NCBI GenBank assembly: GCA_021199475.1
Contig: JAJQHZ010000161.1
Span: forward strand, 1-43,276
Length of the DNA: 43,276 nt
From: Lachnospiraceae bacterium
GTDB taxonomy: Bacteria > Bacillota > Clostridia > Lachnospirales > Lachnospiraceae
Direction of reading: 5' to 3'
Shown here one piece after another: positions 19,346 to 28,990 of the stretch. The notes beneath the pieces were generated by a model. The model saw nothing but the letters and a program-made list of their open reading frames with translations, was not told the DNA's origin and made no database searches. Each line of letters begins with the position of its first letter. Positions within the stretch are counted from its first letter, which is position 1. Made by a program: the position numbers and the translations under genes.

Positions 19346-20320
19346 ATGGCTCAGACGATCTCATCTTTACCAGCAGGAGGCGAATCCTCTTCCGCAACCG
19401 CCGCTCCCTCCATCTGCGGTGCACTGCAGGTCATCGGCACACAGCTCTCGGATAAAAATGGCAATGCAGTACTGCTAAATGGCATCAGTACGCTTGGCCT
19501 TTGCTGGTACCCGGAATATATCAATAAAGACTGCTTTTCCCAATTTAAAAAAGAGTGGAACCTGAATCTGATCCGTCTGGCGATGTATACGGCGGAACCG
19601 GGCGGCTACTGCACGGACGGCGATCCGGAAGCCCTGAAAACGCTGATCAAAAACGGCGTGAGCTACGCCACAGATCTGGATATGTATGTGATCATCGACT
19701 GGCATATTCTCTCCGACGGCAACCCGAACACCTATATTGAAGAAGCGAAGGCCTTTTTTGAAGAAATGTCTTCCGAATTTGCCGGAAATAATAATGTACT
19801 GTATGAAATCTGCAACGAGCCAAACGGCAATACCACCTGGGCGGACATCAAGTCCTATGCAGCGGAAATCCTTCCCGTCATCCGCAGGAACGATCCGGAT
19901 GCAGTGATTCTGGTCGGTACGCCGAACTGGTCCCAGTATGTCGACCAGGCCGCAGCCGACCCCATCACTGGGTATGACAATCTCATGTATACCCTGCACT
20001 TTTATGCGGCTACGCACAAAGAACCCCTGAGAGAGACTCTGGTCTCAGCTGTCGAAGCGGGGCTTCCGGTTTTTGTATCCGAATACGGCATCTGCGACGC
20101 CAGCGGAAACGGCATGCTTGACTATGACCAGGCCAATCAATGGATGGAGCTGCTTGACCGCTGCCAGATCAGCCGCGCCATGTGGAATCTCTCCAACCGG
20201 GATGAGAGCTCTGCCATCCTCAAAAGCAGCTGCACAAAGATCAGCGATTTTACCGAGGAGGATCTCAACGACTCCGGCAAATGGCTGTATGAGCGAAACG
20301 ACCGATTTTTAGCACAATAA
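19346..20320 (+). CDS. Glycoside hydrolase family 5 endoglucanase without a signal peptide
   Basis: A 324-residue GH5 (GH5_2-like) catalytic domain, expected to cut beta-1,4-glucan internally. Catalytic residues are intact: acid/base Glu158 in YEICNEPNG, nucleophile Glu246 in VFVSEYGIC, with His120 (IIDWH), His218 (LHFYA) and Trp280 (AMWNLSN). The N-terminus MAQTISSLPAGGESSSATA has no hydrophobic segment, and an in-frame TGA lies 18 bases before the ATG, so no longer start can supply a leader. The AAGGAG site with seven-base spacing is strong. It is the only clear plus-strand gene in the window and ends 27 bases from the converging exporter ATPase gene. There is no carbohydrate-binding module. 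It may act inside the cell or leave by another route. Confidence 0.95.
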   Translation: MAQTISSLPAGGESSSATAAPSICGALQVIGTQLSDKNGNAVLLNGISTLGLCWYPEYINKDCFSQFKKEWNLNLIRLAMYTAEPGGYCTDGDPEALKTLIKNGVSYATDLDMYVIIDWHILSDGNPNTYIEEAKAFFEEMSSEFAGNNNVLYEICNEPNGNTTWADIKSYAAEILPVIRRNDPDAVILVGTPNWSQYVDQAAADPITGYDNLMYTLHFYAATHKEPLRETLVSAVEAGLPVFVSEYGICDASGNGMLDYDQANQWMELLDRCQISRAMWNLSNRDESSAILKSSCTKISDFTEEDLNDSGKWLYERNDRFLAQ

Positions 20321-20347: not shown

Positions 20348-21019
20348 TCATTCATGCAGCTCCCCATCCACGATGCGCACGATTCGCTTCGCGTTTTCGG
20401 CAACGCCGAGGTCATGCGTAATCATGACAATCGTATTTCCCATCTCGTTCAGGCGGCGAAACAGCTTCAGTACTTCTTTTCCGCTGGCCTGATCGAGCGC
20501 TCCGGTCGGCTCATCCGCCAGCAGAATCGCCGGCTCGCCGACCAGGGCGCGGGCAATCGCGACACGCTGCTGCTGCCCGCCGGAAAGCTCGCGGGGCTTA
20601 TGATGGACGCGCTCCTCCAACCCCAACATTTTGATGATATCCTCGCTCTCCTCCTCCGCCTCATCCAGCGTCATGCCGCGCATCAAAAGCGGCATCACGA
20701 TATTCTGCACTACATTATAGGTCGGTATCAGATGATATTTTTGAAAAATAAACCCGATCTTTTCATTGCGAATCTGCGTCAGCTGCTTTTCCTTTGCATT
20801 ATGCACCTCAATCCCATCCAGAACATAGGTGCCGCCATCCGCATGATCCATACAGCCGATAATGTTCATCAACGTACTTTTTCCGGAACCGGACGGGCCG
20901 AGAATTGCCAGAAACTGCCCTTCCTCCACATCCAGGGAAACATTCTTCAGCGCATGGAGCTGCGAATTCCCAATCGAATAATATTTTTCAATGCCGCGCA
21001 TTTCAATGATATGACTCAT
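20348..21019 (-). CDS. ABC transporter ATPase, MacB/LolD type
   Basis: A 223-residue ATPase with all motifs: Walker [10 protein letters not shown] (41-49), Q-loop FQKYHL, signature LSGGQQQR (145-152), Walker [13 protein letters not shown] (165-176), and the switch histidine in MITHD. The family powers FtsX/MacB-type permeases that push substrates or lipoproteins out from the membrane surface instead of carrying them across. It is the last gene of the exporter run and follows the lipoprotein gene after a 125-base gap with no visible terminator. The permease is 1.6 kb upstream in the same direction, so the lipoprotein gene is embedded between the two transporter halves. Confidence 0.96.
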
Positions 21020-21144
21020 ACTTTTGCCTCGCTGTTATTCTTCTTTCCTTCGGCATTCCTCACCGCTGTGACTGCATCCGCCAATTTTTCTTCGCGAATT
21101 CAGAAGGGCAAAACCCGCTGCAACGATTTCTGAGCGCTTTCCAT

Positions 21145-22503
21145 TCACTCTGCCCCAATCAGCCACATCGCCGTAATGACTTCATTGCCGTCCTCGTCCG
21201 TCTCAAACAGCACCTCCAGCTCGTCGCCTGCCTCAAGAATGGAAAATGTCTTTTCTTTTCCTGTAGAAGTGTACACGACCACGCCGACCGGAAGGTACAC
21301 GGTCGTCGTCTCCTGCGTACTTCCGCTGACCAGCTCCGTCAGATCCGTATCGCCGCTCATCACGTCTGCAATATCGCTCATATCGATGCCGCCGCTGCTA
21401 AACGCTTCCGCCACATCGCTCATGTCGACCTCACCGCTGCTAAATGCTTCCGCCATATCACTCATATCAGAATCGCCCATCTGGCCGCCTCCGCGCATAC
21501 CGCCATTGCCTCTGTCCGAGCGCTCACCCGTTGAAGAATCCGCATCCGCAGAGATTTCTTCTGATTCATCTGCTTCCGTCTGCGCTGCATCTGCGTCCGT
21601 TCCTGTCTCGATCTCATCAGACGTGGATTCGCCGTCCCCATCCTCGGCAACATTCGTCTGAGACGCATCTGTTTCCGTGTCCGCATCGGCCTCTGTTCCT
21701 GCGCCAGCTTCCTCCTCTTCTCCGTCTGAAGAACTGCCGTCATCGTCCGAAGAGTCGTTGGCATCATCCGAGGAGTCGCTCCCCTGCCCCGGCATCGAAC
21801 CCATATCGATATCACTCATGTCAGGCATATTATCCGAATCCATATCGCCCATGGCAGGCATATTATCCGAATCCATATCGCCCATGGCAGGCATATTACC
21901 TGAGTCCATATCACTCATATCCGGCATTTCACCAGCATCATCGGACGCAGCTGCTTCCTCAGACACATCCGAAGCATCAGCCATACCTGTTTCGTCCTCC
22001 GTGGCATCCCCGTTTTCGCTCTCTGCGGAACTCCTGGTTTCGTCTTCTTCTGCGCTCCCGGTTTCGCCTTCTTCTGCGCTCCCGGTTTCGCCTTCTTCTG
22101 CGCTCCCGGTTTCGCCTTCCGCGGCGCTCTCTGTTTCGCCCTCCGCGGCATCCCCGGTTTCACTCTCTGCAGCACTCTCCGTTTCGCCCTCTGCGGCATC
22201 TCCGGTTTCGTCTTCCGCAGCGCTCTCCGTTTCGGATTCCGTTTCCGTCTCTTCTTCGGTCTCTTCTATATATGTGAGCTCATTTCCGGTGATGGAGACA
22301 ACCTGAATGGTCGCTTTGCGCTGCCCTTCGCCAAGCTCTGTCTCTGTCTCATCACTGGAAAGTCCCAGCTTCTCACTTACCGTTCCTGTCACGCTGCTGG
22401 CCACTTCGCCCACGGTTCCTGTCACGCTGTTCACGTTTTCACACCCCGTCAGCGATATCGTCAGCACTGCCGCCAGCCCCAGACTCAGATATTTCTTTTT
22501 CAT
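21145..22503 (-). CDS. Acidic Met/Asp-rich lipoprotein of the exporter cluster
   Basis: A 452-residue predicted lipoprotein with lipobox ISLTGC (Cys21). Residues 83-175 are E/T/S/A/G repeats with a 24-bp DNA period. Residues about 192-240 are Met/Asp-rich (MPAMGDMDSDN in 11-residue repeats). Residues 344-384 hold three DMSD-type repeats (DSDMSDMAEAFSSGEVDMSD). A small C-terminal beta-rich domain (TTVYLPVGVVVYTSTGKEKT to AMWLIGAE) could be the folded part. A shared DMSDMAEAF segment links it to the permease. I recognise no family. It lies between permease and ATPase genes, so it is probably a partner of the exporter; metal binding by the Met/Asp segment is only a guess. Confidence 0.85.
   Translation of the reverse strand: MKKKYLSLGLAAVLTISLTGCENVNSVTGTVGEVASSVTGTVSEKLGLSSDETETELGEGQRKATIQVVSITGNELTYIEETEEETETESETESAAEDETGDAAEGETESAAESETGDAAEGETESAAEGETGSAEEGETGSAEEGETGSAEEDETRSSAESENGDATEDETGMADASDVSEEAAASDDAGEMPDMSDMDSGNMPAMGDMDSDNMPAMGDMDSDNMPDMSDIDMGSMPGQGSDSSDDANDSSDDDGSSSDGEEEEAGAGTEADADTETDASQTNVAEDGDGESTSDEIETGTDADAAQTEADESEEISADADSSTGERSDRGNGGMRGGGQMGDSDMSDMAEAFSSGEVDMSDVAEAFSSGGIDMSDIADVMSGDTDLTELVSGSTQETTTVYLPVGVVVYTSTGKEKTFSILEAGDELEVLFETDEDGNEVITAMWLIGAE
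21822..21920 (-). repeat. 33-bp tandem repeat, three copies, in the lipoprotein gene
   Basis: Copies at 21822-21854, 21855-21887 and 21888-21920; the first two are identical and the third is diverged. They encode the MPAMGDMDSDN-type 11-residue unit. A separate 24-bp repeat (three copies, 22051-22122) encodes GSAEEGET. Confidence 0.92.
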
Positions 22504-22628
22504 AATTCTGCCTCTTTTCTCCCGTGCCGCATATAATCATAGTCCTGTTTATGAGAAGAAAACCTGCTTCTCTGTTCCGCTTCAATGCAATCCTGTCCTG
22601 AATACTTGAACCATCAACCATTTTCTGT

Positions 22629-24539
22629 TTAATCTGAGTTCAGCGCCTCCACCGGTACCAGCTTGGATGCTTTCCATGCCGGATAAAAGCCAAAAATTGT
22701 GCCGGTCAGGATGGAAAACGCCAGTGCCGCTCCCCAGGCTGTCGCATTTGCCTCCACGCGGACGCCGTTGTACTCCACGAGCGGCGTCACCAGAAAGCTC
22801 GCTCCGACGCCAAGGACTCCGCCGATCAGGCTGATGGCGGCTGACTCAAACAGGAACTCAAAAAGAATCGTGCCTCTCGATGCGCCCAGCGATTTCAGAA
22901 TGCCGATTTCGCCCGTCCGCTCCTTGACGGAGACAAACAGGACATTCATGATCCCGATTCCGCCAACGATAAAGACAATGACGGCCATTGCCGAGAGCAG
23001 CACCGTCAGAATCTCATTCGAGGATTCCGCCGCCTCCAGCTTACTGCTTGCATCGGAAAAGGTAAATTCCGCCGTGCTGTAATTTTCTTCCAGTACCGTC
23101 TCCACATCTTCTTTTACCGAGTCAACCAGATCCACGTCGTTGCAGATGACCGTAATGACCGGACTGATATCGGTTCCGGTAATGTATTTGATTCCGGTCT
23201 CATACGGGACAAAAATCGATTCATCCGGAGTAATATTTCCGGATACCGTAGAGGAGGAGGACAGCACGCCGACTACCTCATAGGCACGGTCATCCAGGTA
23301 AAGTGTCTCACCGTAAGCGTCCGCTGCACTTCCGAATAAATCCTTCGCCACCGTGCTGCCAAGCACACAGACCCGCGCCTGGCTGTCGCTCTCATCATCC
23401 GTAATAAACTCGCCCTCTGCCATTGACAGATTGCTGACCGTGTAATAGCTGTAATAAACCCCGGCCACTGTATAAGTCTCTGCCTCGGTCAGATCTCCGC
23501 CTTCGACCGAAGTCCGGGAGGTGTAGGAAATCGTCGCATCGTCAATATCCGTCACAAAGGTCTCAATGTCTTCCACATCGTCAATCGTAAGAATAATATT
23601 TTCCTGATTCAGACGCTCATCCGTCAGATCGCTCTCATCTTCTGTCTCTTCTTCTGCCGCTGCAGCCGCCGCCTCCGTCTCAGCCTCTGACGAACCTTCC
23701 GCATCCTGCCCCGTCATTTCTTCATCGGAGACAGTTGCCTCACCATCCTCACCGGAAGCTCCAGCAGAGTTACCTTCTCCTTCATCAGATGCACCAGCAG
23801 CGTCTCTATCACCTTCACTGGAGCCGTTTGCAGATTTCCCGTCGCTTTCGCCGGACGCATCCGCAGAATTCGCATCGCCAGAGCTGTCCGAAGCGTCTTC
23901 TGCAGCCTCTCCGGAACCATCTTCCGCCGCAACACCGTTATCACCTTCATCAGAAGCTCCCTCCTGCATTCCGCCGGAAAGCATTGATTGCAGATCACTC
24001 ATATCCATATCGCCGCTGGCAAAGGCTTCCGCCATATCGCTCATGTCGCTGTCCGAAAAATTTCCTCTATCCCCTCTGCCGGATGAACTGCTGTCGGAAG
24101 AATCGTCCGAAGAAGCACCGCCGCCCATTGTCATACCGCCGCCTGCCATGGCCATACCGGCATCCATGGAAGCACCGCCGGTCATCCCACTTCCGGAATC
24201 CGACGTACCGTCGCTGCTCCCGCCGCGGCCGCCACCGCCGCCAAGGCTGAACATATTGCTGATATTACTCATAAAAGAGCTGCCAATATCCGAGAAAGAA
24301 AAGCTGCCGCTTCCCCCGGCGGAGGTCTCCTCCCCCTCATAATCATAGGTAATATCAATCGAACCGGCATTCAGGCTGGCGAACTGCTCCGCGACATCCA
24401 TTTTCCCGCCGCGGCCGATTGCAAACACCATCACGATGGTCGCCGCACCAACAATGATTCCGATGGACGTCATGACCGTTTTAAACTTGTTCTGGTTAAT
24501 ATTCAGCCAGACAAGCCGTAACAGCTCTGTTAACCTCAT
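22629..24539 (-). CDS. MacB/FtsX-type ABC transporter permease with a large low-complexity insert
   Basis: A 636-residue permease. The first membrane helix is at about 20-42 (MTSIGIIVGAATIVMVFAIG). The extracytoplasmic MacB_PCD domain has features such as DDVEDIETFV and RVCVLGSTVAKDLFG. Three C-terminal helices form the FtsX part (VKERTGEIGILKSLGASRGT, then the end APVEALNSD-like WKASKLVPVEALNSD). Between about 70 and 308 lies a Gly-, Met-, Ser- and Asp-rich insert, with SMDAGMAMAGGGMTMGGG at 124-141 and DSDMSDMAEAFASGDMDMSD at 163-182; the second segment is nearly the same as one in the neighbouring lipoprotein. Family members without this insert are near 400 residues. The start overlaps the adaptor stop by four bases (ATGA), so translation is probably coupled. 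Confidence 0.95.
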   Translation of the reverse strand: MRLTELLRLVWLNINQNKFKTVMTSIGIIVGAATIVMVFAIGRGGKMDVAEQFASLNAGSIDITYDYEGEETSAGGSGSFSFSDIGSSFMSNISNMFSLGGGGGRGGSSDGTSDSGSGMTGGASMDAGMAMAGGGMTMGGGASSDDSSDSSSSGRGDRGNFSDSDMSDMAEAFASGDMDMSDLQSMLSGGMQEGASDEGDNGVAAEDGSGEAAEDASDSSGDANSADASGESDGKSANGSSEGDRDAAGASDEGEGNSAGASGEDGEATVSDEEMTGQDAEGSSEAETEAAAAAAEEETEDESDLTDERLNQENIILTIDDVEDIETFVTDIDDATISYTSRTSVEGGDLTEAETYTVAGVYYSYYTVSNLSMAEGEFITDDESDSQARVCVLGSTVAKDLFGSAADAYGETLYLDDRAYEVVGVLSSSSTVSGNITPDESIFVPYETGIKYITGTDISPVITVICNDVDLVDSVKEDVETVLEENYSTAEFTFSDASSKLEAAESSNEILTVLLSAMAVIVFIVGGIGIMNVLFVSVKERTGEIGILKSLGASRGTILFEFLFESAAISLIGGVLGVGASFLVTPLVEYNGVRVEANATAWGAALAFSILTGTIFGFYPAWKASKLVPVEALNSD

Positions 24540-26053
24540 TCCGTCACCTGGCTTTCTATCAGGACCGTCTGTCCCTCCTCCAGACCGGAGGTCACCGCCA
24601 CCGTCGTTCCGTTTGAATACCCGGTCGTAATCGTCACTTCCTCGATCGTTCCGTCATCCTGGAGCACCTTCACATAAGAGGTCGCGCCATCCGTAAACAC
24701 CGCCCGGTTCGAGATATAAAGCGTATCCGCTTCCTCTTTCGTGATAAACGTCACCTCGCCGGTCATATCGGAATACACCTTGCTGATATCACTGGTAAAT
24801 GTCACCGTCACCTCGTAGTTTACAGTCGAAGAGCCGGTCGTCGCTGAGGTGGAAATCGAGGTCACCTCGCCCTCAAAGGTCTCGTCCTCATAAGCGGTCA
24901 GCTCGATGGATACCGTATCTCCCGTGGAAATATCGGAAATATCATTCTGGGAAACCGCGACCGTCATTGTCACGTTATCCGAATCGGAAAACGTCACTAC
25001 GGTAGAGTCACTGGTCAGCGAATCACCGGCGCTGTATGAAATCGACATGACGGTTCCCGAATATTCCGAATAAATAACTCCATCCCCGATCTGCTCTTCA
25101 AACTCCTCCAGCGCCTCCTGTGCCTCCTCGAGCGTTTCCTGCGCATCCTCCAGGTCATCCGTGAGACCGTCCGTATCAATCTCATAAAGCTGATCCGCAT
25201 ACTCATAATTAGTCATTGCATTTTCATAGGTCTGCTTTGCTTCAATCGACTGCGTCGTAAGATTGTTCTTCGCGATCTCCAGGTTCGCCTCGATGGTATC
25301 ATAATTCAGCTGCGCATCTTCGAGGTCGTCTTCCACGTCCTCGCCCGCGTCATACTCGGACTGCAGCTCCTCTACCTCATCTGCAGCTTCCTCAAGATCC
25401 TCCTCCAGCTCCGTCACCGTATTTTCCAGGCTCGTAATCGTCGCGTTGTACGTCGCCTCGGCCGTCTCTCCTTCTGCAATATAAGTCGCATAGGTGTAGT
25501 CCGCCTCCGCCTGCTTCGTCTCTACATTGATCTCCTCCTGCTTCACAGTCAGCTCTGCACTCGTAACCGCCGCTTCCAGCTCCTCCCGGTATGCTTCAAT
25601 GCTCTCATCCGTAATCTTCATCAGCGCATCACCTTCTGAAACCACCTGACCGACCGACACATACACCTCCTCCACCTCCAGAGAGGTCGATGAACTGGAG
25701 CCCGATGTCGTACTCGCCGTCGATGTCATGCTCGTCATATCCATACCGGAGTTTCCCGATGAATTCCCGCCCGAAGACGAGGAAGAGGATGTCGACGAAG
25801 TGGAAACCACCTCCTCCACCTCAAACTCCTGATCCGCGGTTCCGTAGGTCACTGTCCCGCTTTCCGTGATGCCGGTAATGACCGAGCCGTATTTTACAGT
25901 TTCCTGCTTATATGAAACCGTTTCCTCCGTATCGGTGGTCTGCTGGTTCTCATACACCACGTAGCCGCCCACGCCCGCCGCCGCAACCACGACCAGGAGG
26001 AAAAAATTTCTGAGATAATGATGCTTCTTTTTCCTTTTTTTACTGCTGCTCAT
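24536..26053 (-). CDS. MacA/HlyD-type adaptor, second of two
   Basis: A 505-residue membrane-anchored adaptor. A lysine-rich start precedes one helix (NFFLLVVVAAAGVGGYVVY, about 16-34). A split lipoyl/barrel-sandwich motif follows: EVEEVYVSVGQVVSEGDALMK in the N-terminal half, and IYSEYSGTVMSISYSAGDSL after a long coiled-coil hairpin (about 165-315). A beta-barrel segment (NVTMTVAVSQNDISDISTGD) and a membrane-proximal domain complete it. A Ser/Thr/Gly/Met insert lies near 95-120. In monoderms such adaptors sit on the outer face of the membrane and link the permease to cargo. The ATG at 26053 follows AAGGAGATGGCGGT and lies 12 bases after adaptor 1. Its sequence parallels adaptor 1, suggesting an old duplication. 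Confidence 0.93.
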   Translation of the reverse strand: MSSSKKRKKKHHYLRNFFLLVVVAAAGVGGYVVYENQQTTDTEETVSYKQETVKYGSVITGITESGTVTYGTADQEFEVEEVVSTSSTSSSSSSGGNSSGNSGMDMTSMTSTASTTSGSSSSTSLEVEEVYVSVGQVVSEGDALMKITDESIEAYREELEAAVTSAELTVKQEEINVETKQAEADYTYATYIAEGETAEATYNATITSLENTVTELEEDLEEAADEVEELQSEYDAGEDVEDDLEDAQLNYDTIEANLEIAKNNLTTQSIEAKQTYENAMTNYEYADQLYEIDTDGLTDDLEDAQETLEEAQEALEEFEEQIGDGVIYSEYSGTVMSISYSAGDSLTSDSTVVTFSDSDNVTMTVAVSQNDISDISTGDTVSIELTAYEDETFEGEVTSISTSATTGSSTVNYEVTVTFTSDISKVYSDMTGEVTFITKEEADTLYISNRAVFTDGATSYVKVLQDDGTIEEVTITTGYSNGTTVAVTSGLEEGQTVLIESQVTE

Positions 26054-26065
26054 ACCGCCATCTCC

Positions 26066-28759
26066 TTACTCCTCTGTCACCGTGACCGTCGCCCCGATTC
26101 CGGCGCTCAGCCGTCCCCGGCTATTGTCAATTGAAACGACCACCTGGTAATTCACCGTCGTCCTCGATGTTCCTTCTTCCGCTTCCGTGCTCTTCTCTGT
26201 AATCGTTCCCTCATACGTTCCATAGCCGGAAAGCTCGACACTCACCGTATCGCCCACCGCCATCTTCGCGATTTCATACTGAGAAACTTCAAGTGTCACC
26301 GTAACAACGTCTGTTTCATAAATGCTGTACAGCGCGGTATCCGCGCTCAGCGTATCATCCGCCTCATAATTGACAGCGGAAAGGCTTCCCGCCGCCTCGG
26401 CCGTGACTGTGCCGTCTTCGAGCTCCTGCAGTGCTTCCAGCGCTTCCTCCAGCTCGGTCAGCGCATCCTCATAGGTCTGAAGCTCCTCCTCCAGTGACTC
26501 CACGGTCTGCTGATACGTAATCTCCGCCAGCTCCGCCGCCAGAATGGTGGTGTCATAGGTATACTGAATATCCAGCTCCGTTGTCGTCCGGATTCGCATC
26601 AATTCCTCATACTGCAGCTGCACGTCTTCGAGAACCTCGTACAGCTCTTCCAGGACCTCCTCCGCCTCATCGGAATCCGTCGCCGTCAGCTCCAGCGCAC
26701 TCTCCGCCTCCGACAGATCATAGGTATCTCCAAACAGGCTGTCACTGCTGTCGCTCCCGGAGCCCATGCCGCCGGATGCCAGCGCTGCGGCAGCATCTGA
26801 GGCCGAAGAGGTTATCGTTTCCGTCGATGCGGCAGCCGAGCTGTCTGATGAAACACTGCCTGCAGTCCCAGACGCGGCCGTTGACGATCTGTTTCCCGAT
26901 GACGCGGACTCCATCGCAGATGCCATCGCAGAAGCCATGGACGAATAATCCGAGGAGTCTGCCGCATCCGAAGAAGCCGACGAATCAGATGCCCCCGCCG
27001 CGGCCGAGGAACCAGTCATCCCCGCAAACGAGGATGCATCCATTCCGGTCAGTCCATTTGTCCCCGACGCGCCCTCAGTGCTCGTTGTGCCGTTCGCAGC
27101 CGCCGTGCCATCCGCAGCTGTCGTGCCGTCCGCGCTCATCGCCCCATCCGCGCCGATCGTGTTCTCTGATGTTCCACTCAGCTGTGCAATCTGTGTCTCC
27201 AGCACAGCAATCCTCGCCTCTTTGCTTTCAATGGTATGTATTACATCATAATAATCAATATACAGCTGCTGCCGGGTTGCCTCCATCGCGTAAAGCTCCG
27301 CGAGTAAGGATTCAAGGGTTGCCTCGGTCTCGGTTTCCTCCTCTGTGTCCTTTTCCGTGTCTGCATCGGAATCTTCCTCGTCAGATTCATCCGTGATGCC
27401 AGATGAATCGTCATCATCTCCGCTGCTGCCCGTACTTCCGGTTGTGTCATCGGAAGTACTTCCATCTGTTCCGCTGCTTGTGCCATCATTGCTGCTTGTA
27501 TCTGCCTCAGTTTCTGTCTGCGTCTCGGACTGTGTCTCTGTCTGAGTTTCTGACTGTGTCTCCGTTTGTGTTTCCGTTTGCGTCTGCGCCTGTGTCTCTG
27601 TTTGCGTTTGCGCCTCCGTCTGTGTCTCTGTTTGCGTTTGCGCCTCCGTCTGTGTCTGTGCTTCTGTTTCCTCCGTCTCCGTTTCCGCCACGGCAGCCGC
27701 TTCGGTCGTCTCTTCCGCTACCGTCGCGATCTGCGTTTCTTCCTCTGCCAGCGTCTCCTGCGGCAGATCCTCCGAGGAATTTGTCATTGGGAAACCATCC
27801 CCCGAGCTCTCCAACGCAGCGGTCGTCTCAGATTCCGTCTCACTCGCCGTGTCCAGCACCAGATGCCCCGCTCCGGCCAGTACAGAAGTATCGTACTCCT
27901 CCAGCGCATACATTTTTTCAAGAATTGCGTTATACGCCTCGTTCTGCTCCTCTATCTCCGACTCCAGCGTCGACTCCGTCTGTTCAAGAGCCGTCACCTC
28001 GCTCTCCAGCACAGCCTTCTCCGATTCTAGCGCAATCAGCGGATCCTCAGTCTCGGTCTCTGTCTCGCTCTCCGTCTCAGTCTCGGTTTCCGTCTCGCTC
28101 TCCGATTTCTTCGACTTCTCGCTCTCTGTCTCGGACTCTTCTTCCTGAGAAGAACCGGACGAACTGCCTGATGAGCTCGACGATGAGTCATCATCGTATT
28201 CGCCATTTTCCAGATCCTCGATCCGCTCCTCGAGCTCCGTGAGCATTTCCTCATGCTCCGCAATCGTATCCTCCAGCTCCGCCTCCGACTGAGACCTCAC
28301 AAACTCCGCCTGCTCCGCCTCAGCCTGCGCCAGCTCCAGCGTATACTCCGCGGACTGCATCCCCTGTGTGTACGTCAGCTGCTCATCCGTGAGATTATTC
28401 TCGGCCCGGATGATTGCCGCATTATAATAAGAAAGCGCACTCTGATAGCTGTCATCCGTAATCTTTAAAATGCTGGTTCCTTCCTGCACATACGAGCCGG
28501 AAGAAACATACACTTCCTCCACGATCAGCTCCACCGCTGTCGTACTGAAGTCCGCGTAATAATCCGTCGAGGAAATCTGTGTCGTCCCCTCATATTCCAG
28601 ATCCTCAGCCAATACCATCGGACTGTTCATCATCTGCCCGCAAAAAACAGCCAGCGAAAGAACGCAGCTTTGCACTGCCCTCCTCCCTGGCCCTTTTCTC
28701 CGGCTACTCTTTATCCTTTCGTTTGCACTCGTCTGTGCACCTGTCTGATAACCACTCAT
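26066..28759 (-). CDS. HlyD-like adaptor with very long low-complexity inserts, first of two
   Basis: An 897-residue exported adaptor that heads the exporter operon. The N-terminus has a basic region and one hydrophobic stretch ending MVLAED, a likely signal peptide or anchor. The lipoyl half-motif VEEVYVSSGSYVQEGTSILK lies at about 85 and the returning half ELEDGTVTAEAAGSLSAVNY near the C-terminus, followed by VTVTLEVSQYEIAKMAVGDT and a terminal barrel. Coiled-coil segments flank E/S/T/Q-rich spacers (TETQTQ-type repeats) and a Ser/Ala/Met-rich stretch, together several hundred residues. The frame opens at 28795, but the ATG at 28759 has a GGGAGGA site six bases upstream and is preferred. 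Adaptor 2 lacks inserts of this size. Its unusual length suggests it spans the cell wall, which is inference. Confidence 0.87.
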   Translation of the reverse strand: MSGYQTGAQTSANERIKSSRRKGPGRRAVQSCVLSLAVFCGQMMNSPMVLAEDLEYEGTTQISSTDYYADFSTTAVELIVEEVYVSSGSYVQEGTSILKITDDSYQSALSYYNAAIIRAENNLTDEQLTYTQGMQSAEYTLELAQAEAEQAEFVRSQSEAELEDTIAEHEEMLTELEERIEDLENGEYDDDSSSSSSGSSSGSSQEEESETESEKSKKSESETETETETESETETETEDPLIALESEKAVLESEVTALEQTESTLESEIEEQNEAYNAILEKMYALEEYDTSVLAGAGHLVLDTASETESETTAALESSGDGFPMTNSSEDLPQETLAEEETQIATVAEETTEAAAVAETETEETEAQTQTEAQTQTETQTEAQTQTETQAQTQTETQTETQSETQTETQSETQTETEADTSSNDGTSSGTDGSTSDDTTGSTGSSGDDDDSSGITDESDEEDSDADTEKDTEEETETEATLESLLAELYAMEATRQQLYIDYYDVIHTIESKEARIAVLETQIAQLSGTSENTIGADGAMSADGTTAADGTAAANGTTSTEGASGTNGLTGMDASSFAGMTGSSAAAGASDSSASSDAADSSDYSSMASAMASAMESASSGNRSSTAASGTAGSVSSDSSAAASTETITSSASDAAAALASGGMGSGSDSSDSLFGDTYDLSEAESALELTATDSDEAEEVLEELYEVLEDVQLQYEELMRIRTTTELDIQYTYDTTILAAELAEITYQQTVESLEEELQTYEDALTELEEALEALQELEDGTVTAEAAGSLSAVNYEADDTLSADTALYSIYETDVVTVTLEVSQYEIAKMAVGDTVSVELSGYGTYEGTITEKSTEAEEGTSRTTVNYQVVVSIDNSRGRLSAGIGATVTVTEE

Positions 28760-28990
28760 ATGCTTCCTCCCACTATCATAAACGGCGTTTTCCATTGCCC
28801 GAAGCTTATACTATTCTGGATTGAGCATACGTGGTTTGTGTGTTCATTTATCGGAAAAAATTTGAAAATTATGTGAACTGTTATTCATCACTTCTTATTC
28901 GCTCTGTATTTATATTATCCTTTTGTCGCTCAAATCATGCTATGTACGCAAAAAGCTTAGGATAACGTCCCTGATGTTCCCGGATGTATG

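Follow-up and report, generated by a model that had tools for sequence, protein, structure and literature searches.

A MacAB-like exporter of Lachnospiraceae with a repeat shared by its permease and an anchored accessory lipoprotein

The exporter locus and its accessory lipoprotein

We analysed a 43,276-nt stretch of DNA (hereafter, the window) from a Lachnospiraceae bacterium (assembly GCA_021199475.1, contig JAJQHZ010000161.1), in which an exporter operon at 20348-28795 encodes a permease and an accessory lipoprotein (LIP) that have a short acidic Met/Asp repeat, here called the DMSD repeat, in common. All five genes lie on the minus strand, in the order adaptor A, adaptor B, permease, LIP and ATP-binding cassette (ABC) ATPase. 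The initial annotation had rightly recognized five same-strand genes for two adaptors, a permease, a lipoprotein and an ATPase, but its range, 21145..28759, omits the ATPase gene (20348-21019), and 28759, where that range ends, is a later ATG in the frame of the first adaptor's longest open reading frame (ORF), which begins at 28795.

By the domains of its permease, its cognate LolD/MacB-type ATPase and its HlyD/MacA-type adaptors, the operon is a MacB-like (type VII) ABC exporter, and the Pfam and NCBIfam families support the earlier description of a MacAB-like exporter with two adaptors. The permease (22629..24539; 636 residues) matches MacB_PCD (5.6e-23; 82.8 bits against a cut-off of 27) and FtsX (1.6e-18; 67.4 bits against 25.5), and its sequence relatives with solved structures are MacB, Spr0695 (5xu1), YtrF, YknZ and the Lol permeases. 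The ATPase (20348..21019; 223 residues) matches ABC_tran (1.5e-35), with MacB, DarD and LolD as its best NCBIfam families, each under its own cut-off. The NCBIfam equivalog for MacB proper (PRK10535), with a cut-off of 966 bits, was reached neither by the permease (176.7 bits) nor by the ATPase (242.2 bits). HlyD_3 scores above the Pfam cut-off in both adaptors, namely HlyD-type adaptor A (26066..28795; 909 residues; 5.2e-9) and HlyD/RND_mfp-type adaptor B (24536..26053; 505 residues; 3.7e-16), the latter also exceeding the NCBIfam cut-off for RND_mfp. Gene order is conserved, adaptor A and the ATPase keeping the same place in orthologous operons. Judged by eye, adaptor A has a signal peptide ending in VLAED and no further transmembrane (TM) segment, and seems to be secreted, while adaptor B is anchored by an N-terminal TM segment. 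Long Thr/Glu- and Gly/Ser-rich inserts interrupt adaptor A, and the lipoyl hairpin of adaptor B carries a Ser/Met-rich loop (residues 84-124, GMDMTSMTSTAS; 25682..25804). The 3′ end of the adaptor B gene overlaps the start of the permease gene by four bases. The exporter thus resembles the mechanotransmitting type VII MacAB/MacB family in its MacB_PCD and C-terminal FtsX domains, HlyD-type adaptors and LolD/MacB-like ATPase, and differs from it in having separate ATPase and permease proteins, two adaptors, a long insert in the extracellular domain and an extra anchored subunit.

That subunit, LIP (21145..22503; 452 residues), has the lipobox LTGC with Cys21, and its relatives are likewise encoded between permease and ATPase. 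Its conserved core, with the motifs EGQ...GNELTY and IPVGTxVxTxLG..TTFSxLxxGD...IxxIWI, is split by a low-complexity insert (residues 78-403; 21295..22272; net charge -105) into an N-terminal part (residues 59-77, EGQRKATIQVVSITGNELT; 22273..22329) and a C-terminal part (residues 404-451; 21151..21294); across the 48 proteins measured, the insert spans 13-396 residues. LIP of the window matched 0 families in Pfam and NCBIfam, three of its relatives exceeded no Pfam cut-off, and the C-terminal core found no match in the PDB. No known fold was recognized for LIP: the whole-protein profile returned just prunin (E 7.4) and, across the acidic insert, Piezo2 (7.6e-4). A literature search covering titles and abstract openings found no description of LIP or of the DMSD repeat.

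A profile of the C-terminal core had matches in 19 of the 397 family genomes searched, including that of the window. At the 18 other loci, the ATPase gene adjoins LIP in every case and the permease gene in 17, the remaining locus starting at a contig end. Among 291 genomes of the class, convincing matches came from two family members only (own genome included), and the gene behind one weak match elsewhere in the class (4e-5) is adjoined by neither an ATPase nor a permease gene. By these profile searches, LIP is a Lachnospiraceae accessory family without a family name, encoded between permease and ATPase and tied to this exporter. The form of the exporter with the DMSD repeat in both proteins belongs to a group of uncultured gut bacteria of the Lachnospiraceae. 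Beyond the operon, a plus-strand ORF resembling, by eye, a GH5-type endoglucanase (19346-20320) ends near the ATPase gene, convergent with the operon.

The DMSD repeat of the permease and the lipoprotein

The alignments of the permease with MacB break at an insert (residues 66-313; 23601..24344; net charge -54) that follows the first extracellular strand and precedes the conserved segment after RLNQE. By the residue numbers given in a review, in which we take the numbered protein to be 5lil, the break falls within the Porter subdomain. Across the 74 permeases measured, the inserts at this place abound in Gly and Ser and are enriched in Met; that of the window contains a repeat block (residues 161-189, FSDSDMSDMAEAFASGDMDMSDLQSMLSG; 23973..24059) of two units. 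A second block lies within the LIP insert (residues 344-392, DSDMSDMAEAFSSGEVDMSDVAEAFSSGGIDMSDIADVMSGDTDLTELV; 21328..21474) and comprises three full units and one partial unit. Both are built of a 14-residue unit with the pattern D-[MLVIF]-S-[DS]-[IMVL]-A-[ED]-A-[FM]-x-S-G and both are preceded by an Arg/Gly segment, DRGN, as had been described initially. The longest exact run common to the two proteins, DSDMSDMAEAF, counts 11 residues, while 400 composition shuffles yielded runs of at most 8. We considered and rejected a recent duplication at the DNA level, or gene conversion, as the source of the likeness: the 60-base DNA blocks are identical at only 45 positions and differ at 15, which is not what a recent copy would show, and the permease and LIP versions are each conserved across species.

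Profile tests carry the case for a shared repeat. Searched against 47 whole genomes of the genus, a profile built from both versions gave 61 matches at E<=10, and all 45 at E<=0.001 fall in LIP or the permease of the operon, with none of the remaining 16 below an E value of 0.0065. In the window's own genome, it found three matches at E<=10, all within the permease and LIP genes and none in an adaptor; among 294 other genomes of the order, its best match reached 8.3e-4. When built from nothing but 14 permease copies, a profile detected 12 LIPs, of which 11 belong to the fetched loci of the clade delimited below and one (L108) to a genome of the same genus, and when built from nothing but LIP copies, it detected the 13 permeases of that clade in the fetched loci; beyond these proteins, the next match of the single-protein profiles, among 4,318 ORFs, had an E value of 0.3. 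A 15-base DNA pattern for the repeat was too strict and gave 0 matches. On this profile evidence, the DMSD repeat is not generic low complexity, and the concern that it might recur in many unrelated proteins of the genome was not borne out, its matches at E<=0.001 being confined to two genes.

The block is also better conserved than its surroundings, and the substitution ratios indicate that it is under purifying selection. Across 15 permeases, it has an amino acid identity of 0.78, a gap fraction of 0.01 and a ratio of nonsynonymous to synonymous substitution rates (dN/dS) of 0.08, against identities of 0.58 and 0.42, gap fractions of 0.15 and 0.33 and dN/dS of 0.24 and 0.16 in its two flanks. 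Across 13 LIPs, the block has an identity of 0.67, 4% gaps and a dN/dS of 0.17, and the low-complexity stretch preceding it an identity of 0.43 and 52% gaps. All these dN/dS ratios are rough because synonymous sites are near saturation.

Considering these values, it is rather unlikely that the repeat is a low-complexity expansion with little function, in which likeness would stem from shared composition and a common mutational bias. Such an origin would fit the low complexity and many indels of the surrounding inserts, as well as the Ser- and Thr-rich runs of the adaptors, and in a gapped alignment of the whole inserts of the window (100 shuffles per pair) the score of permease against LIP is only weakly above chance, being reached by 8 of the 100 shuffles. 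This last result, however, means that the likeness resides in the block and not in the inserts at large, and the block itself is specific to two genes, poor in gaps and under purifying selection, with a profile from one protein detecting the other.

The composition of the unit was counted in 70 units picked by a pattern that limits the possible letters. Within that limit, position 2 holds Met or, in its place, Leu, Val, Ile or Phe; Ile dominates position 5, Phe and Met occupy position 9, and Asp, Ser or Glu predominate at positions 1, 4 and 7. The helical moment exceeded that of shuffles for four of six unit sequences (shuffle fraction 0.036-0.05), and the blocks bear net charges of -7 (permease) and -14 (LIP). 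We infer that the unit is a short acidic amphipathic helix, with positions 2, 5, 6 and 9 hydrophobic and positions 1, 4 and 7 acidic or Ser.

The MxxM spacing in DMSDM and the Met-rich runs of both proteins recall Met-rich elements that bind Cu or Ag, and metal binding had been offered, beside docking, as a role for the shared segment. We regard it as scarcely credible here, because Leu, Ile, Val or Phe replaces Met in many copies: a residue other than Met stands at position 2 in 36 of the 70 pattern-picked units and at position 5 in 55. Moreover, the 74 permease inserts measured contain no Cys, with His in only one, the LIP inserts have almost no Cys or His, and the sequences revealed no Met, Cys or His ligands conserved among orthologues of the kind expected for Cu/Ag binding by Met motifs. 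The other half of that proposal, a docking or binding role, is reasonable, since the shared element is real, specific to two genes and conserved.

Distribution and origin of the repeat, the inserts and the lipoprotein

Most of the genomes used are metagenome assemblies. Of the 47 that represent the genus, 19 carry the operon with LIP, whole or partial. By repeat-profile search, 14 genomes of the genus have the repeat in both proteins; in one more (G012), LIP has it and the permease is truncated at the contig end, and in four divergent operons neither protein has it (G001, G003, G024 and G026). A wider family scan of named species genomes with a permease profile, in which the best 80 of 84 relatives were used, yielded 78 loci, whose titles mostly name Lachnospiraceae or its genera (the others only a higher rank) and include Kineothrix alysoides, Butyrivibrio, Acetatifactor, Parablautia and Eisenbergiella. 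K. alysoides and a Butyrivibrio strain possess both the exporter and a relative of LIP but not the DMSD repeat. Of the 75 operons whose permease reaches 400 residues or more (the window and L154 included), 50 have LIP, and three of those without it stop at a contig end. Many of the distant operons have three adaptors instead of two. In three-adaptor relatives (ORF starts L102:7310, L124:7140 and L120:7235), the lipoyl loop of the third adaptor has a GGLDMFSQIFSMAG-like run, which recalls the IGQMFGNMFGG run of some permease inserts.

In a tree of 74 permease cores, with the root drawn at the midpoint, all 14 repeat-bearing permeases fall into one clade (support 100/99), which indicates that the repeat arose once, in this clade. 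The initial annotation had named absence from orthologous operons as a result that would speak against its proposal; the repeat is indeed absent outside the clade, as in the four divergent operons of the genus, and is kept within it. The presence of LIP requires 3-4 changes on the same tree and therefore fits an ancestral LIP with some losses.

The inserts are, by the same comparison, older than the repeat. The earlier assertion that such inserts are missing from MacB-type permeases does not hold in this family: each of the 74 orthologues measured (L154 left out) has one at this position, mostly Gly-rich and 31-248 residues long; it spans 204-248 residues in the clade and 31-182 elsewhere, with a median of 62. 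Since the insert is kept in operons without LIP, its older role was probably not LIP docking. One permease from an operon without lipoprotein (L134:8998-10623) bears MPDMSQMPEGGE repeats in its insert, along with a GNRGDRGN segment, so that a different type of Met/Asp repeat occurs in a permease alone. In Butyrivibrio sp. XPD2002 (L154:8005-9744), a single ORF begins with adaptor-like N-terminal sequence and continues into the C-terminal half of a permease; either the fusion is genuine, or a deletion or a misassembly produced it.

Lipid anchoring of LIP follows the clade as well. A lipobox is found in 12 of 12 LIPs of the clade, whereas 34 of 37 outside it lack one by a simple pattern, under which one of the three positives (L122) resembles a TM helix and one negative (L100) has a near-lipobox. 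Because the lipobox is a trait of one clade, LIP is best called an anchored accessory subunit. TM-anchored relatives at L105:10319-11845 and L128:10332-11762 have charged N-terminal tails of 181-226 residues, presumably cytoplasmic. That LIP is instead a lipoprotein substrate, moved by a Lol-like exporter, would agree with the distant relationship of LolC, LolE and LolF to the permease and with the uniform lipobox of the clade. We consider this very improbable, however, given the 34 relatives without a lipobox by that pattern and the position of the LIP gene inside the operon, and the earlier suggestion of a substrate, read in this way, is not supported; for the companion suggestion, that the lipoprotein replaces an outer-membrane partner, no evidence was found.

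Possible roles of the shared repeat at the pump mouth

The lineage of this exporter is expected to have no outer membrane. Its two different adaptors have a parallel in TriABC-type pumps, which are RND pumps of Gram-negative bacteria. Section 13 of PMC5985334 ascribes protection from antimicrobial peptides to the Gram-positive MacB-type systems YknXYZ, AS-48EFGH and Spr0693-0695. Two of these, the Bacillus system YknWXYZ and the Enterococcus system AS-48EFGH, resemble the present exporter in being MacAB-like with an accessory membrane protein. As described there, AS-48E is a predicted four-TM protein, which sets it apart from LIP with its single TM segment or lipid anchor and extracellular core. 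Spr0693-0695 of Streptococcus pneumoniae has a separate permease related in sequence (5xu1) and is described in passages of PMC5768738 as having an adaptor hexamer whose flexible lipoyl loops form a gate; it differs in having one adaptor, and those passages mention no accessory lipoprotein.

The presence of one repeat in both the permease and LIP points to the binding of a common partner or of one another. Tentatively, we favour the former, and think it possible, though short of an even chance, that this MacAB-like exporter with an anchored LIP uses its shared acidic mini-helices to bind a common, probably cationic, partner at the extracellular mouth. The mini-helices would be strung on flexible anionic linkers provided by the disordered-looking inserts, and they might bind either the adaptor ring or a substrate peptide of amphipathic character. 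Ligand or subunits would then be kept at the mouth by numerous weak contacts during a MacB-type conformational change driven by the ATPase. A common cationic partner seems the most likely one, given the strongly negative charge of both proteins and the element that they share.

In the alternative, the repeats of the two proteins would associate directly with each other, like with like, and LIP would thereby be tethered to the permease. The occurrence of one motif in both proteins, gained in the same clade, and the LIP gene beside that of the permease at 17 of the 18 other loci, the last being truncated at a contig end, are what such tethering would predict. We nevertheless hold it to be unlikely, as both blocks are acidic (-7 and -14) and their pairing would need a cation or a mainly hydrophobic interface, for which reason a shared, probably basic partner is likelier; in addition, the number of LIP units differs between species, and the permease insert, though not the DMSD repeat, persists where LIP is absent.

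Several observations weigh against binding of a common cationic partner by acidic mini-helices. Two of the six unit sequences did not beat shuffles in helical moment, one of the six (DLSDIAEAFSS) is a composite, and the helicity of the unit is a prediction from its sequence. The acidity of the insert is not peculiar to the clade, sister permeases without the repeat bearing -13 to -29 charges per 100 residues and those of the clade -22 to -27. Owing to its single origin, the repeat in two proteins counts as one evolutionary event. The exact-run test is weaker across the clade than the profile tests: 5 of 12 clade genomes (window included) beat every shuffle, one of them (L090) through a Glu/Thr run, as did 2 of the 25 that lie outside the clade. 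We also rejected the idea that whole inserts co-vary within the family; although same-genome pairs exceed random pairing in gapped alignments from 37 genomes, their similarity shows no excess over that of near relatives (0.261 vs 0.276), and the surplus is thus due to descent.

As to the nature of a common partner, peptide capture is our preferred, as yet unproven, reading, because the studied Gram-positive MacB-type systems act against antimicrobial peptides and because 18 of the 78 exporter loci include, in the stretch fetched, ORFs of a two-component system (response regulator and histidine kinase), which suggests that exporters of this kind are inducible. None of these matches is from the clade of the window. 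These ORFs, assigned by Pfam on one response regulator and one histidine kinase, occur at loci both with and without LIP (for example, L092:7983-8657, L097:11906-13343 and L153:1222-2556).

A more far-reaching version, which we consider a long shot, is an extracellular multivalent capture layer, in which identical mini-helices on the permease loop and LIP, together with a degenerate Ser/Ala-rich form on the adaptors, would make up a flexible anionic mesh that traps cationic amphipathic peptides and feeds them into the adaptor channel. Both adaptors carry Ser/Ala-rich segments resembling the DMSD unit. When these were tried as a third and a fourth copy of the motif, the outcome varied between sequences, which are related and not independent: p ranged from 0 to 0.47 for adaptor A, with 12 of 14 values at or below 0.05, and from 0 to 0.95 for adaptor B, with 5 of 14. 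If it exists, this layer would be an intrinsically disordered substrate-capture module at the mouth of the pump, and we know of no such module in MacB-type ABC transporters.

The exporter bears on the question of what adaptors and accessory proteins do in Gram-positive MacAB-like pumps: in section 13 of PMC5985334, the job of an adaptor without an outer membrane is posed as a question and the role of YknW is called enigmatic. An accessory family without a name and an element limited, in the genus genomes searched, to two subunits of the pump offer concrete handles on how such a machine may assemble, or catch its substrate, without an outer-membrane duct, and the blocks, of 29 residues in the permease and 49 in LIP, are deletable.

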